In this document: in pieces, positions 16,849-28,735 of the stretch
Position numbering within the stretch: the stretch's first letter is position 1
Layout: each line of letters opens with the position of its first letter
Source of the DNA: a virus
Direction: 5' to 3' (one strand)
DNA: 32,081 nucleotides
Virus record (IMG/VR): IMGVR_UViG_3300048582_000133
Location: 1-32,081 of that record
The notes under the pieces: generated by a model
Told to the model about the DNA's origin: nothing
The model's database searches: none
The model's input: only the letters and a program-made list of their open reading frames with translations
Translations under genes and position numbers: made by a program

Positions 16849-17518
16849 CAAGCCACCTCCCACAGCCGAAGCTGGCGGCGAAAGTGCGGCGCATTTTCCT
16901 GAAACACAGCCTTTGCAAACCCTGCCGGCGTTGCGCTTCTGAAGTTGGCGCGATCCGGTCCAGGCGGCGCGGTGTGAATCCGGTTGTCAGGCTCACCCAA
17001 TGCGGAATTGATCACCGGATCAGGCATTGAGAACCCCCCCCAGACCACAGGCACGTCAGCTTCGTGTAGTTGTCGTCAGCGCACAGGCCGCTGAAGTGAT
17101 GCGGGTGAAAGCTATGGTCTGGCTTGCCGAATATGCTGCTGAACACGCTGACAGGGTTTTCAAAGAACCACGGAGCGCCGGACAGCATTCCGACCATCCG
17201 GCATTGCTCTGCAACGATTGCAGCGCGGGATTGAAAGTGCCGGTCTTTCTCGGCCTTGGACTCAAACCAGCGCGCACCACTCACGGCCACGTCAGTGCAA
17301 GGCGGGAAGCCTGCAACCATGACCACGCGACGGCCACGGATGATTTCACCAAGACGGCTGGCAGCTTCCTGCACAGTGCAGGGCAGGCGCTCAATGCGCC
17401 CGTCGTTGCTGTACTTGCCGTGCTGCGGATCAACCAGGACGGCGCTATAACCGGCGTCAACCCAAGGCTTGACCATTGTTCCGGTAATATCGCACAGGGA
17501 TATGATCACGCCGTTCAT
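16848..17518 (-). CDS. Dcm-like DNA cytosine methyltransferase, frame broken at an 8-G run
   Basis: Start ATG 17518 (MNGVIISLCDITGTMVKPWV) with GGGGAGGG upstream. The catalytic PPC motif (FPPCTDVAVSG, C74) and the ENP motif (FFENPVS, 119-124) identify a C5-cytosine methyltransferase-like phage protein. The unshifted frame stops at 17012 (168 aa). The -1 frame beyond the run of eight G (17041-17034) continues as FSMPDPVINSALGEPDNRIH, ending at 16848, and carries the family's usual C-terminal NFRSATPAGFAKAVF block. A single -1 slip would give 223 aa. It is either phase variation, programmed slippage, mutation or an assembly error. TRD-like region is minimal, so activity is uncertain. Confidence 0.75.
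17034..17041. repeat. Homopolymer of 8 C (+) / 8 G (coding strand)
   Basis: The run lies exactly at the point where the methyltransferase reading frame breaks, in the Leu-Trp-Ser-Gly-Gly segment. Nine G would restore one continuous frame. Confidence 0.9.
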
Positions 17519-17727
17519 CTGCGCGCCCTCCCCATCGCCTGGAACACTCGTGCGCACTCGATACAGTGACGGCATGCGTCTACCGCTTTCCTGCGCGCTT
17601 CCGGTATCTCATTGCCGCACGCCTCGCATTCGCTCAGGCTCTCCCCGGTTGCGGGCTTGAATGCGGCCAGAGCTGCGTCGAGTTGGCGCTGCATTTCTTC
17701 GTTTCCGATGTCGGCTATGTCGGCCAT
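17515..17727 (-). CDS. DksA/TraR-family zinc finger protein
   Basis: 70 aa from ATG 17727 (MADIADIGNEEMQRQLDAAL), which overlaps the primase-helicase stop (TAATG). Four cysteines (C34, C37, C52, C55) in CEACGNEIPEARRKAVDACR-HC form the DksA/TraR C4 zinc finger. Short phage TraR-like proteins bind the RNA polymerase secondary channel and alter promoter choice like DksA/ppGpp. The short coiled N-terminus fits TraR rather than full-length DksA. Confidence 0.87.
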   Translation of the reverse strand: MADIADIGNEEMQRQLDAALAAFKPATGESLSECEACGNEIPEARRKAVDACRHCIECARVFQAMGRARR

Positions 17728-24369: not shown

Positions 24370-25241
24370 TGGGCGCTTTCCAAGGTTCTCAAGCCTGGCT
24401 TGATGAGCGCAAAGGACGCATCACAGGGAGCCGCGTTGCTGCGGCCCTTGGGGTTGATAAGTACAAGACCCGCGACGATCTGATGCGCGAAATGGTGCGC
24501 GAACACTTCAACGCCGAGCGCGAGTTCACCGGCAACGAAGCAACCGCACACGGCAACGCGCACGAAGATGATGCTATTGACCTGTACGAGCAGCAGACAG
24601 GCAACGGCATCCAGTACACCGGCCAGCATATCCATCCCGACTATGACTGGCTGGCAGCTTCGCCGGATGGCCTGGTCGGCGCTGACGGGCTGATCGAGGT
24701 TAAGTGTCCGTTTCGCGCTACCTACACCACAGCCGCCGAGGTTCCGCACTACATCGAGCAGATGCAGCTTCAAATGGCCGTGACTGGTCGGAAGTGGTGC
24801 GACTTCGTGATCTGGCGCGATGGCGTGATCTGGATTGATCGCGTCGAGGCTGACCCGTTCTGGCTCGATGAAAGGTTCAGCACGCTGTGCGAGTTCGTCA
24901 TCGACTACAAGACGACCATAGCCAGCGAGGAACTGTCAGCGCGCCACCTGACGCCGCTTATCCGCACCGATGAAGCATGGTCGGCAGCGGAACAGGCATA
25001 CGCCACGGCAAAGCAGGCAGCAGACGAGGCAGACGCCAAGCTTGAAGCAGCCAAGACCAAGCTGATCGAACTGGCAGGCGAGCAAAGCCAAAAGGGTTTA
25101 ACCGTCCAGGTTATCCGCTCCGAGCGCAAAGGCTCGGTGCAATACGCCAAGGCAATAGCAGACCTTCTGCCGGATGCCGATCTAACCAAATACACCGGCA
25201 AGTCGTCGGTTGTGTACACCGTGAAGGAATGCAAAGCATGA
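24369..25241 (+). CDS. YqaJ-family recombination exonuclease
   Basis: 290 aa, TAATG overlap with the ERF gene. PD-(D/E)XK active-site set: GSQAWLDERKGRITGSRVAA (family N-terminal motif), GNAHEDDAIDLYE (E66), AASPDGLV (D100) and LIEVKCP (E110-V-K112). It should be a lambda-Exo-like 5'-3' nuclease producing the strands that ERF anneals. Residues about 205-250 form a charged coiled coil (AAEQAYATAKQAADEADAKL) beyond the core domain. Confidence 0.9.
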   Translation: MGAFQGSQAWLDERKGRITGSRVAAALGVDKYKTRDDLMREMVREHFNAEREFTGNEATAHGNAHEDDAIDLYEQQTGNGIQYTGQHIHPDYDWLAASPDGLVGADGLIEVKCPFRATYTTAAEVPHYIEQMQLQMAVTGRKWCDFVIWRDGVIWIDRVEADPFWLDERFSTLCEFVIDYKTTIASEELSARHLTPLIRTDEAWSAAEQAYATAKQAADEADAKLEAAKTKLIELAGEQSQKGLTVQVIRSERKGSVQYAKAIADLLPDADLTKYTGKSSVVYTVKECKA

Positions 25242-25561
25242 AGAAAGTCGCAGTGGCTCTCAAAATTGACGTGACGAAAATCGACAAGGCCCGACTGTTC
25301 AAAGGCGCAAAAGGAACCTACCTCGATGCAACGATCTTTCTCGATCTTGGCGAGGCAGACCAGTACGGCAACCACGGCATGATCACGCAGGACGTTGGCA
25401 AAGAAGCCAAGGCCGCTGGCGAGCGAGGCGAGATTCTCGGCAACGGGAAAATTGTCTGGCGGGATGAAGGCGAAGCGCCACGGCAAGCGCCGAAGCAGCA
25501 GCCGGCAAGACAAGCCGCCCCGCCTGAGTATATGGATATGGACGACTCGATCCCGTTCTAA
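25238..25561 (+). CDS. SSB-like single-stranded DNA-binding protein
   Basis: 107 aa from ATG 25238 (MKKVAVALKIDVTKIDKARL), ATGA overlap with the exonuclease gene. The C-terminus YMDMDDSIPF is the acidic tip by which SSB proteins recruit partners; a Gln/Ala/Pro-rich linker (APRQAPKQQPARQAAP) precedes it. The N-terminal 75 residues are a beta-type domain compatible with an OB fold but not closely like E. coli SSB. Functions with ERF and YqaJ in recombination and replication. Confidence 0.82.
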   Translation: MKKVAVALKIDVTKIDKARLFKGAKGTYLDATIFLDLGEADQYGNHGMITQDVGKEAKAAGERGEILGNGKIVWRDEGEAPRQAPKQQPARQAAPPEYMDMDDSIPF

Positions 25562-25576
25562 ATCAGCACAGCAACC

Positions 25577-25601
25577 AAGCCCCGCGAGTCGGGGCTTTTT
25601 T
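25577..25601 (+). terminator. Terminator after the recombination genes
   Basis: AAGCCCC-GCGAGTC-GGGGCTT followed by T residues, 15 bases past the SSB-like gene. Further same-strand genes follow at once, so antitermination or a partial stop is implied. Confidence 0.85.
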
Positions 25602-25613
25602 ACGGGTGAACAA

Positions 25614-26045
25614 ATGATTGCAACCATAGCCAGCCGCGAGGAAGCGGCAAAGATGATCGCGGAAGCTCTGGCGAATTACACGGGCGAGATTGAAGTATGC
25701 AAGCCATGCCCGATAAATCCGACGCCGCCAGAACCAAGCGGGCGGATTGACCCGACCACAAAGCTCAAGCGTAAGCCTCCAGCGCCGCCGCCGAAGGAAC
25801 TCAGCGAGGCCAAGCTGCGCCAGCTCGCAACGCTTAGCGAACTGCGCAAGGTTCCGAAAGAGGAACGCCAGCAGACACAACGCGAGATTGCGATTCAGCA
25901 CGGCATCAGCCGGTCAACCTTGCAGTACCGGCTCGCCAAAGGCATGACCATGCAGGAAGCCACAGCGCCCACCAATCCGAACCTGAACAGGTGGGCAGCG
26001 AATAAGCGCAACCGCAAGGTGTTGGCTCAGGAGTGGCAAGCATGA
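25614..26045 (+). CDS. Helix-turn-helix protein with Pro-rich linker
   Basis: 143 aa from ATG 25614 (MIATIASREEAAKMIAEALA). The middle is Pro/Lys-rich (NPTPPEPSGRID, RKPPAPPPKEL). A helix-turn-helix lies at about 92-120: QREIAIQHGISRSTLQYRLA. The C-terminus is basic (NRWAANKRNRKVLAQEW). A DNA-binding regulator or accessory replication factor is likely; target unknown. Confidence 0.7.
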   Translation: MIATIASREEAAKMIAEALANYTGEIEVCKPCPINPTPPEPSGRIDPTTKLKRKPPAPPPKELSEAKLRQLATLSELRKVPKEERQQTQREIAIQHGISRSTLQYRLAKGMTMQEATAPTNPNLNRWAANKRNRKVLAQEWQA

Positions 26046-26197
26046 GGCGCAAGAGAATCCGCAACCAGTTTGATGACGCCGAGCTTGCTTGGACTCTCGA
26101 AATGAGGTCGGAAGGCATCCAGTGGAAGTTCATCGCCGCCGAGCTTTCGACCGGCATAGACATTATCCGAAGCGCGCTATGGAGAAGGATGCAATGA
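26042..26197 (+). CDS. Small basic HTH-like protein
   Basis: 51 aa, MRRKRIRNQFDDAELAWTLE, MRSEGIQWKFIAAELSTGID, IIRSALWRRMQ. It overlaps both neighbours by four bases. The segment SEGIQWKFIAAELSTGIDII-RSALWRR reads like a helix-turn-helix. Perhaps a small DNA-binding partner of the preceding gene product. Confidence 0.65.
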   Translation: MRRKRIRNQFDDAELAWTLEMRSEGIQWKFIAAELSTGIDIIRSALWRRMQ

Positions 26198-26496
26198 GCA
26201 ACGAGCCTTACGAAACGATGAACGAAGGCGAGCCGCACGCCGCGACGAACTACATCACGCGCCTGCTTGCGGGCCTGCTGATTGCGCTGATCGTGCTGAT
26301 TGCATCGGCTTGCCCAGCGAAGGCCGGCGAGAACCTGTGCAGAGCATACGGCCAAGGCTGGGCGCTCGGCATCTGCTGGAGGTCAACTGAATGCTATGTG
26401 CCGCCCGTGCGCTGTCCGGTCGGGCTTGAGGATGCGGATCAGGCTTACATGGCCGGATTACGAGATGGCCTGAAGGCTGGGAGGGTTGAGATTTGA
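26194..26496 (+). CDS. Small exported or membrane protein, Cys-rich C-terminal part
   Basis: 100 aa from ATG 26194 (MSNEPYETMNEGEPHAATNY). Residues 24-40 are a hydrophobic helix (LLAGLLIALIVLIASAC) ending in a lipobox-like ASAC (C40), then AKAGENLCRAYGQGWALGIC-W and STECYVPPVRCPVG with four more cysteines. The unusually long cytoplasmic N-terminus argues for a membrane anchor more than a classical lipoprotein. Disulphides in the periplasm are likely. Function unknown. Confidence 0.65.
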   Translation: MSNEPYETMNEGEPHAATNYITRLLAGLLIALIVLIASACPAKAGENLCRAYGQGWALGICWRSTECYVPPVRCPVGLEDADQAYMAGLRDGLKAGRVEI

Positions 26497-27218
26497 TTCA
26501 TTACCACGGCACGCCAATCGGAGGCGCACGGCAAGACGCAGCGCGCTTTCTGGCGGGCCGTCATGCGCTTGTGCCGTTCCCGAGGCAAGACGATATGGGA
26601 ATCGTTGCGGAGGTTTGTCAGTCCTTTGTTTTCGATAACGGCGCATTCAGTGCGTGGAAGCGCGGCCTACAGCTCGACTTCGACGGGTATATCCGATGGG
26701 TTGACGACTGGCACAAGCACCCAGGATTTGATTGGGCATTGATCCCTGACGTTATAGACGGTGACGAAGATGCTAACGACGCATTGTTGGAAATGTGGCC
26801 GCAACACTTGGCGGGTGTCCCTGTATGGCATCTACATGAATCGCTCGAAAGACTGCAAAGAATGGCAAGCACTTATCGAATCGTCGCGCTCGGAAGCTCC
26901 GGCCAGTGGTCAAGCCCCGGCACAGACGCATGGTGGAAACGCATGGGCGCGGCGATGGATGCCATTTGTGACGACCAAGGCCGACCAGCCTGCAAGCTGC
27001 ACGGTTTGCGGATGCTAGACCCTGCTGTCTTTCAGATGCTCCCACTTGCCAGCGCAGACAGCACAAACGCCGCCGTGAATGGCGGATCGGTGTCTAGGTT
27101 CGGCATGTATGTGCCGCCGACTGCCGGCCAGCGTGCGCAGGTAATTGCTGACCGAATCGAATCACACAACAGCGCCGCCGTCTGGCAGCGCGAAACACAA
27201 ATCGAATTGGCGATATGA
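26493..27218 (+). CDS. TGT/DpdA-like TIM-barrel protein (possible DNA base exchange enzyme)
   Basis: 241 aa, TTG start at 26493 (TTGA overlap) with GGGAGGG upstream. Ordered motifs resemble tRNA-guanine transglycosylases: FDNGAFSAW (D48; compare TDSGGFQ), IPDVID (84-89), VALGSSG (131-137; compare ALGGLAVG), KLHGLRM (168-174) and ASADSTN (186-192, D189 as the possible nucleophile). Phage DpdA enzymes of this fold insert 7-deazaguanines into DNA to evade restriction. No preQ0 synthesis genes are present here, so host precursors would be needed. Assignment is by motif reading only; another TIM-barrel function is possible. Confidence 0.55.
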   Translation: MIHYHGTPIGGARQDAARFLAGRHALVPFPRQDDMGIVAEVCQSFVFDNGAFSAWKRGLQLDFDGYIRWVDDWHKHPGFDWALIPDVIDGDEDANDALLEMWPQHLAGVPVWHLHESLERLQRMASTYRIVALGSSGQWSSPGTDAWWKRMGAAMDAICDDQGRPACKLHGLRMLDPAVFQMLPLASADSTNAAVNGGSVSRFGMYVPPTAGQRAQVIADRIESHNSAAVWQRETQIELAI

Positions 27219-27228
27219 GGGTTGAGCT

Positions 27229-27510
27229 ATGAGTGAAGTATATCAAGCAATTTATGACGTATTTCGCAACGAGAACGCAGGCCACTACATGCAGATGGCC
27301 GCCAGCGAAGTGCAGCAGACTGCGGCTTATTACCAGTCGCCATCAGCAATCTACCGCCCAGCACTGAGCATTGACGGCGATAAGTGGTGCGCCCTGTATG
27401 GGGAAGACCTGCAAGCCGGTGTTTGTGGCTTTGGCGATTCACCTGCACAAGCAATGGCTGACTTCGACAGAGCATGGACTACAAAACTTAACCAAGGAGA
27501 AAAGCCATGA
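27229..27510 (+). CDS. Conserved-type hypothetical protein
   Basis: 93 aa, MSEVYQAIYDVFRNENAGHY, then RPALSIDGDKWCALYGEDLQ-AGVCGFGDSPAQAMADFDRAW. The WCALYGxDLQxGVxGFGxxPxxAMxDFDxAW motif is common in small phage and plasmid proteins of unknown role. GAGG upstream gives a good start. Confidence 0.72.
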   Translation: MSEVYQAIYDVFRNENAGHYMQMAASEVQQTAAYYQSPSAIYRPALSIDGDKWCALYGEDLQAGVCGFGDSPAQAMADFDRAWTTKLNQGEKP

Positions 27511-28463
27511 CTGCTTCGACCGAAAAAATGGAAATGAACAGAATCGAATCATGCAACTTTGAGGCAGGCGCAGCGCCGGAGCCGAAAAAATCACGACTCC
27601 AAGAATGGTCTGAGGCTTTGGTTAAGGTTGCAGAAATGTCAAAGGAAGAACCACGGCCTGAGCCAGTTGGCGAGAAAGTGGAGGTGGTTGCAACCGTGAC
27701 GCTTGGGGGCATTTACCACGGTGGTTCTGGCCCTGAACTTGGCGACATAGATATGGAGCCAAATATGAGAGTCCTTGAGCGCCTGCAATGCGAAACCGTG
27801 ACCTGCTCCGATGACGAACATCTCGACCTGATGACCGTCAACCAGCACCAGCGCCTGCTAAATGCAGAGATTCAGCGCCGCTTTGACGGTAACGAAATCA
27901 GCAGCAGGGAGCATGCAGAGGAACTTGAAGAAGCCAAGCATGGTCAGCGGGTGTTGGCGATGGAGGTGGAGCAGCTCAAGGCAGACAACGAGGTTTACAA
28001 GTCCTGCAATGACGAACTCAAGGCAGAGATTGAGCGGCTTACTTTGGCTGCCAAGGTAGCGGTGGCTGATGCAAACGAGGCTGAAGCTGAGGCAAGGGAA
28101 AGTTTTGCTGACTACATGGAACTGAAAGCCGAGCACGAAAGACTACGCGCCCAGCTCGCAGCACAGGACGGATGGATTCCGGTGTCGGAGCGGTTGCCGG
28201 AAGGTACTGTACTTGCCTACTACACGAATAGCCACGGCAAAGGCAGGAGAATCAGAGCGCGATACGTTAAGCGTTTCACCCAAGAGTCAGAGGACATTGA
28301 CAACTTCGACGCGCAATACAACGAAGATGACGATACCTACTATGACGCTGAAGGCTGGTATGAACTGATCGACAATTGGGGCGACTACTCAAGCGTTGCA
28401 GTGGTTGAGGGCGAAATAACCCATTGGCATGAACTCCCACCACTACCGAAGGAGAGCAAGTGA
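27507..28463 (+). CDS. Coiled-coil protein with C-terminal DUF551
   Basis: 318 aa. Residues about 118-215 are a long charged coiled coil (REHAEELEEAKHGQRVLAME, DELKAEIERLTLAAKVAVAD). At about 221 DUF551 begins, DGWIPVSERLPEGTVLAYYT, ending THWHELPPLPK. DUF551 is widespread in phages in early accessory regions; function unknown. The first 60 residues are low complexity. ATGA overlap with the upstream gene. Confidence 0.8.
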   Translation: MTASTEKMEMNRIESCNFEAGAAPEPKKSRLQEWSEALVKVAEMSKEEPRPEPVGEKVEVVATVTLGGIYHGGSGPELGDIDMEPNMRVLERLQCETVTCSDDEHLDLMTVNQHQRLLNAEIQRRFDGNEISSREHAEELEEAKHGQRVLAMEVEQLKADNEVYKSCNDELKAEIERLTLAAKVAVADANEAEAEARESFADYMELKAEHERLRAQLAAQDGWIPVSERLPEGTVLAYYTNSHGKGRRIRARYVKRFTQESEDIDNFDAQYNEDDDTYYDAEGWYELIDNWGDYSSVAVVEGEITHWHELPPLPKESK

Positions 28464-28735
28464 TGAACGAGATTGCCGGTTTTGAGGAATGGTTTATCGC
28501 GCATAACCAGAAACGACTAAACGCCGGTTTCGATGATTACAGGCCAGCAGAAAAGATGCTCGCCTGTGTTGCATGGCAAGCCGCACGCGCCAAGCCAGTC
28601 GTGCCGGATGGGTATGTGCTTGTGCCGATGGAGCCGACTGACGAGATGATTGAAGCTGGTCGTGATTCTTTAGGCAGAGGCCACGGCATGTTTTTGATTT
28701 ACGAAAGCATGATCAAAGCCGCACCTAAGCAGTAA
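28463..28735 (+). CDS. Small early accessory protein
   Basis: 90 aa, MNEIAGFEEWFIAHNQKRLN, ACVAWQAARAKPVVPDGYVL-VPMEPTDEMIEAGRDS. The 'FEEWF...A.VAWQAAR...VPDGYVLVPxEPTxEM' pattern is a known recurrent sequence in phage early proteins, often with DUF551. Start overlaps the upstream stop as TGATG. A GTG three bases earlier is also possible. Confidence 0.75.
   Translation: MNEIAGFEEWFIAHNQKRLNAGFDDYRPAEKMLACVAWQAARAKPVVPDGYVLVPMEPTDEMIEAGRDSLGRGHGMFLIYESMIKAAPKQ

Follow-up and report, generated by a model that had tools for sequence, protein, structure and literature searches.

The locus and its surroundings

The window, that is the whole 32,081-bp virus record that was analysed, carries on its plus strand a gene for a small putative base-exchange enzyme. 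The features of the gene and of its immediate surroundings are as follows.

26089..26496, plus strand: preceding ORF, coding for a small protein that has a single hydrophobic segment and no family match; not a precursor transporter
26480..26492, plus strand: likely ribosome-binding region GGGAGGGTTGAGA ahead of the TTG start, read directly from the letters
26493..27218, plus strand: gene for a predicted singleton DpdA/TGT-like base-exchange enzyme; TTG start, 241 aa; phrog_887, E 5.3e-71
26634..26636, plus strand: D48 codon (DNGAF), end of beta-strand 3; counterpart of the Asp in DSGGF/DSGAF of TGT/DpdA
26748..26750, plus strand: D86 codon (IPDVID), after beta-strand 4; family-invariant, Ser in Seurat-type DpdA
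26829..26831, plus strand: H113 codon (VWHLHE), end of beta-strand 5; equivalent to H132 of DpdA
26892..26894, plus strand: G134 codon (ALGSSG), end of beta-strand 6; equivalent to the GG loop of DpdA/TGT
27000..27002, plus strand: H170 codon (KLHGLR), beta-strand 7; equivalent to H187 of DpdA
27057..27059, plus strand: D189 codon (SADSTN), beta-strand 8; presumed nucleophile, equivalent to D206 of DpdA

The TTG start is preceded by the purine-rich GGGAGG and is supported by the relatives of the gene, which have ATG at the same residue. It shares the letters TTGA with the stop of the preceding ORF, and this 4-nt overlap suggests translational coupling between the two; a promoter scan of positions 25000-28600 returned none. 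An earlier note on this DNA had given the coordinates of the 241-aa ORF exactly, and the motif order that it listed (DNGAF, IPDVID, ALGSSG, KLHGLR, SADSTN) is present as described.

Other genes of the window code for head, portal, terminase, tape measure, repressor, integrase, Erf, exonuclease and endolysin functions. The phage is most likely of a Pseudomonas-type temperate kind, since the bacterial genomes with close copies of the gene are mostly Pseudomonas. On the minus strand (17012-17575) lies a DNA methyltransferase gene (phrog_757, E 3e-54), and with it the phage may possess another gene for DNA modification. Two consecutive plus-strand ORFs (27507-28463 and 28460-28735) match several small PHROG families of unknown function, with phrog_60 common to both, and are typical variable early-region phage genes.

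Genes of preQ0 synthesis were searched for in the record by tblastn with FolE, QueD, QueE, QueC, QueF and YhhQ, which gave nothing convincing; supply-gene HMMs had 0 matches in the window, and QueC was absent from the record. The earlier statement that the enzyme gene stands without preQ0 genes thus holds, for this record only, since the record may be incomplete.

A phage family within the TGT superfamily

Profile search placed residues 1-233 of the window protein in PHROG family phrog_887, 'queuine tRNA-ribosyltransferase', at an E value (5.3e-71) that shows the five motifs not to be a matter of chance. Matches to the protein at E <= 1e-3 were found by tblastn in 200 phage records, many of the RefSeq phage copies being already annotated as queuine tRNA-ribosyltransferase, and IMG/VR holds at least 596 relatives. 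Identity to the window protein is 78% in Pseudomonas phage Epa33, 48% in SPN3UB, 46% in BTP1, 40% in SfI, 39% in MED16 and 37% in SW9. Eleven residues (H5, G6, D48, A51, P85, D86, H113, G134, H170, L172 and R173) are invariant in all 428 relatives, and D189 and S190 are kept in 427 of them, the remaining row being, for D189, a gap. One phage record labelled as Staphylococcus phage (OR850331.1, 1,719 bp) contains a copy with a score equal to that of Salmonella prophage copies; mislabelling or contamination of the record is probable.

Comparison of the family by hhalign with eight phage DpdAs of the proven type, all of them copies beside FolE/QueD/QueE/QueC, gave a probability of 99.0, an E value of 3e-18 and 23% identity over 177 columns, with an alignment spanning DNGAF, VWHLHE, KLHGLR and SADST; a deeper DpdA set, which overlaps the first, gave 97.9% and E 3e-13. 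Searches of the window protein against Pfam and NCBIfam returned nothing, even at E 10, and neither the Pfam DpdA model PF23859 nor the TGT models PF01702 and TIGR00430 matched at cut-off. Direct hhalign comparison of the family with bacterial TGT (sets of 4 and 17 sequences) was not significant, and equally not significant for true DpdA. Likewise, PDB sequence searches with the window protein and with a 76-row profile gave nothing relevant, as did a DpdA query. In the tree, a 99/99 branch separates the family from the DpdAs of preQ0 clusters, with the window protein outside the DpdA clade.

The AlphaFold2 model of the window protein (pLDDT 91.8, pTM 0.89) is a bare TIM barrel with eight strands. 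D48, H113 and G134 are at the ends of strands 3, 5 and 6, respectively, D86 comes after strand 4, and H170 and D189 lie on strands 7 and 8. The model is thus a (beta/alpha)8 barrel with both catalytic-type Asp residues at strand ends, and in a control model of DpdA (pLDDT 93.2) the same strands hold D63, H132, G153, H187 and D206. In a fold search of the PDB, the window model retrieved generic TIM barrels with no TGT in the top 50, whereas the DpdA control retrieved TGT at all top 50 ranks, which marks the window barrel as stripped-down and diverged. A search of a viral fold library with the window model retrieved many phage queuine tRNA-ribosyltransferases.

The window protein belongs to the TGT superfamily via DpdA, as a stripped-down and diverged member. 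This membership, which the earlier note had proposed from the motifs, is borne out by the phrog_887 and hhalign matches, and its mapping of the motifs onto the active site proved sound, the key residues lying on the same strands as in the DpdA model. Two of the checks that it named gave a divided outcome: profile search returned the DpdA-set match and no match to PF23859 or PF01702/TIGR00430, and structure prediction gave a confident TIM barrel with DpdA-matching residues, for which the PDB search found generic TIM barrels and not TGT.

The phage DpdAs of preQ0 clusters (CAjan/Seurat/VogelGryff, 9g-like, BcepGomr) share with the window protein the TIM barrel and the D/H/G/H/D residues on matching strands. 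They differ in their length (about 305 aa), in extra C-terminal helices, in their TGT-like result in the PDB search and, in the Seurat type, in a Ser where the window family keeps D86; their own preQ0 genes are present in 79 of 80 loci, whereas the window record has none. Bacterial TGT (PF01702, TIGR00430) has the order D-[SN]-G-[GA]-F, GG-type loop and near-terminal Asp in common with the window protein, which is a third shorter, gives no Pfam or direct profile match to TGT and lacks its zinc motif. For the bacterial DpdA of dpd islands (PF23859) the same chemistry has been proposed, but the window protein has no above-threshold match to it, and these islands are multigene and much larger than the lone gene of the window. 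The closest known system is the singleton DpdA group (group 3 of Hutinet 2019; 'DpdA/TGT_1' with MED16 gp38 and Salmonella SW9/SEN1), which is the same family as the window protein. MED16 gp38 is 38.6% identical to it over 88% (E 3e-38) and has the same invariant residues, and the MED16, SW9 and SEN1 phages are without preQ0 genes, as is the window record; the window protein is in a different subclade from gp38, where it groups with Epa33.

Precursor-supply genes beside the relatives

An HMM scan of the flanks of 148 non-redundant family loci revealed a Vut_1/queuosine-precursor transporter in 39, QueE in 9, QueD in 4 and QueC in 1. Of the 54 supply-gene hits, 51 lay within 300 bp of the family gene on the same strand, where a uniform expectation would be 0.083 per hit (p ~1e-51); they represent 51 loci (transporter 39, QueE 8, QueD 3, QueC 1). 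Because the loci are best hits to five chosen queries, the resulting 34% is not a natural frequency, but the adjacent position of the supply genes and their scatter across the tree are not explained by such sampling. Mapped on the tree, the supply label changes 18 times, and at least 12 of these changes are forced by well-supported branches. The family is thus repeatedly linked to precursor supply. Six loci (L002, L007, L008, L010, L013 and L024) code for proteins with 82-83% identity to that of the window, and in these the transporter lies directly upstream.

The transporters were identified by PF02592, above cut-off in nine sampled proteins, and show similarity to TIGR00697 below its cut-off. 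The QueE neighbours were identified by TIGR04508 (one above cut-off) and TIGR04322, the QueC neighbour was above the TIGR00364 cut-off, and QueD was above that of TIGR03367 in three. As far as could be checked, linkage to supply genes across the family is new: no earlier report was found in the literature searched, and a 2024 review and a 2023 paper on further 7-deazaguanines may contain one.

Several single loci deserve mention. In a viral contig (L412, 1691-3608) the family gene, QueC and QueE are consecutive, which makes it an intermediate between the lone enzyme and the full preQ0 cluster. In another locus (L377, 4290-4946) the ORF immediately preceding the family gene resembles ThyX by eye and would be another nucleotide-metabolism neighbour. 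A FolE gene near the family gene of L026 is 1.4 kb away at a contig end; it is probably host flank and was not counted. A cytosine or adenine methyltransferase occurs in Epa33 and in some loci, yet it is not a general partner, since only 2 of the 148 loci have one within 300 bp.

Bacterial genomes carrying the gene

Of the 20 bacterial carrier genomes, 18 had queC above cut-off and all 20 had tgt. Rhizobium subbaraonis and Devosia ginsengisoli, in which queC is missing, also have no queD; they have transporters of their own plus an extra transporter beside the phage gene. A transporter thus stands beside the gene in 2 of 2 genomes without queC versus 1 of 18 others (Fisher p 0.016, n=20), an association with hosts that lack queC which, in so small a sample, is suggestive only. 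Extending this comparison to 397 Hyphomicrobiales and 385 Alphaproteobacteria brought in no carrier beyond the seed genomes, and the number stays at 20.

Having no supply gene, the window phage would depend on host precursor. The earlier note had named such reliance or a different base; reliance on the host is the best reading, given that relatives repeatedly add single supply genes and that queC is present in most carrier genomes.

Second, weak TGT-family ORFs (432-439 aa) were observed in Pseudomonas argentinensis (G008, the genome of locus L099; C4:208370-212033) and in Serratia sp. H1w (G015, L114; C49:23072-23410). The former has an extra queC and queD within 4 kb and resembles a bacterial dpd (DNA 7-deazaguanine) island, so that this host has a dpd-like island plus the singleton phage enzyme.

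Proposed reaction, substrate and role

Lone DpdAs, such as the earlier note saw in this enzyme, were already reported in 2019 as a large group: Hutinet 2019 described 76 phages with DpdA alone, in gamma-proteobacterial and mycobacterial clusters, and left the function open (PMC6884629). In the same work, Salmonella phage 7-11 contained 50 dADG per 1e6 nt, and Mycobacterium phage Orion, which has a lone DpdA and a host without the pathway, contained no such base (PMC6884629). DNA of Pantoea phage MED16, whose sole pathway gene is a dpdA related to the window gene, contained 354 dADG (7-amido-7-deazaguanine) and 3 dPreQ0 per 1e6 nt (PMC8306585). In MED16 the dADG is very sparse, no deletion ties it to the gene, and such a signal could be carry-over.

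We consider it probable that this barrel of the singleton TGT/DpdA branch swaps guanine for a host-made 7-deazaguanine, most likely in phage DNA and at low density. The protein would be a base-exchange glycosylase reduced to the (beta/alpha)8 barrel, from the singleton branch that is PHROG 887 and, in the MED16 paper, 'DpdA/TGT_1'. D189 would most likely be the nucleophile that attacks the sugar C1' of a guanosine, and D48, with a pocket of H113, D86, G134 and H170, would bind the base. In place of the released guanine a 7-deazaguanine would be inserted, either preQ0 or a compound derived from it, for instance the amide ADG, with phage DNA as the most likely and sparsely modified target. The precursor would come from the queuosine pathway of the host; in other phages of the family, the adjacent transporter, QueE, QueD or QueC may boost one step of supply.

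The enzyme might instead be a phage TGT variant that exchanges 7-deazaguanine into tRNA or other RNA, for more queuosine or a different base, and so tunes translation. TGT acts on tRNA, the family is annotated accordingly, and the supply genes fit this equally well. It is nevertheless rather unlikely, considering that the CxCxxC zinc motif of TGT occurs in 0 of 428 relatives, that the proteins have about 240 aa versus about 380 for TGT with nothing beyond the barrel, that the nearest characterised relatives are DNA-acting DpdAs, that dADG was found in MED16 DNA (PMC8306585), and that tgt is already present in every genome carrying the gene. We infer DNA rather than RNA as the substrate.

A salvage enzyme that releases or alters a base or nucleoside of the queuosine type for use by host or phage, with the transporter and Que neighbours belonging to salvage, is distinctly unlikely. 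Transporters make up 39 of the 51 neighbours, more than any other gene, and occur also in the hosts without queC and queD, but QueD, QueE and QueC are synthesis genes, and the homology is to a base-inserting DpdA.

Drift of the window lineage towards a different base or substrate, or into a non-catalytic role in DNA binding, such that 7-deazaguanine is no longer involved, would agree with the separate clade, with a fold farther from TGT than that of DpdA, with D86 in place of the Seurat-type Ser and with the function left open in 2019. It is very unlikely in view of active-site residues invariant in 428 members and of supply genes gained repeatedly, also beside the relatives of 82-83% identity; their recurrent, tightly linked and independent gain argues that lone DpdAs still act on 7-deazaguanine and have not drifted.

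The role that the earlier note proposed, a single-gene restriction shield with guanine replaced densely enough to block host endonucleases, is known from the DpdA of CAjan, where 32% of G is dPreQ0 and restriction is resisted (PMC6884629), but is highly improbable here, as CAjan carries its own preQ0 pathway and MED16, with a related enzyme and no pathway, has only ~0.13% of G modified and its tested G-containing restriction sites were still cut (PMC8306585).

With sparse exchange of guanine in phage DNA as the preferred reading, the results may, tentatively, be extended to the whole family. A very widespread phage family might mark its DNA sparsely with host-derived 7-deazaguanine by means of one small enzyme, each lineage adding the supply gene (importer, QueE, QueD or QueC) that its host makes limiting; importers would go with hosts unable to make preQ0, and the window phage would rely wholly on its Pseudomonas-type host. 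The question whether lone DpdAs have drifted becomes testable in phages SfI, BTP1, HK106, MED16 and Epa33. Should the modification prove sparse and leave restriction unimpeded, it could serve as a packaging mark, as a CRISPR or defence signal, or in gene control, a question that touches many lambdoid and Pseudomonas prophages.
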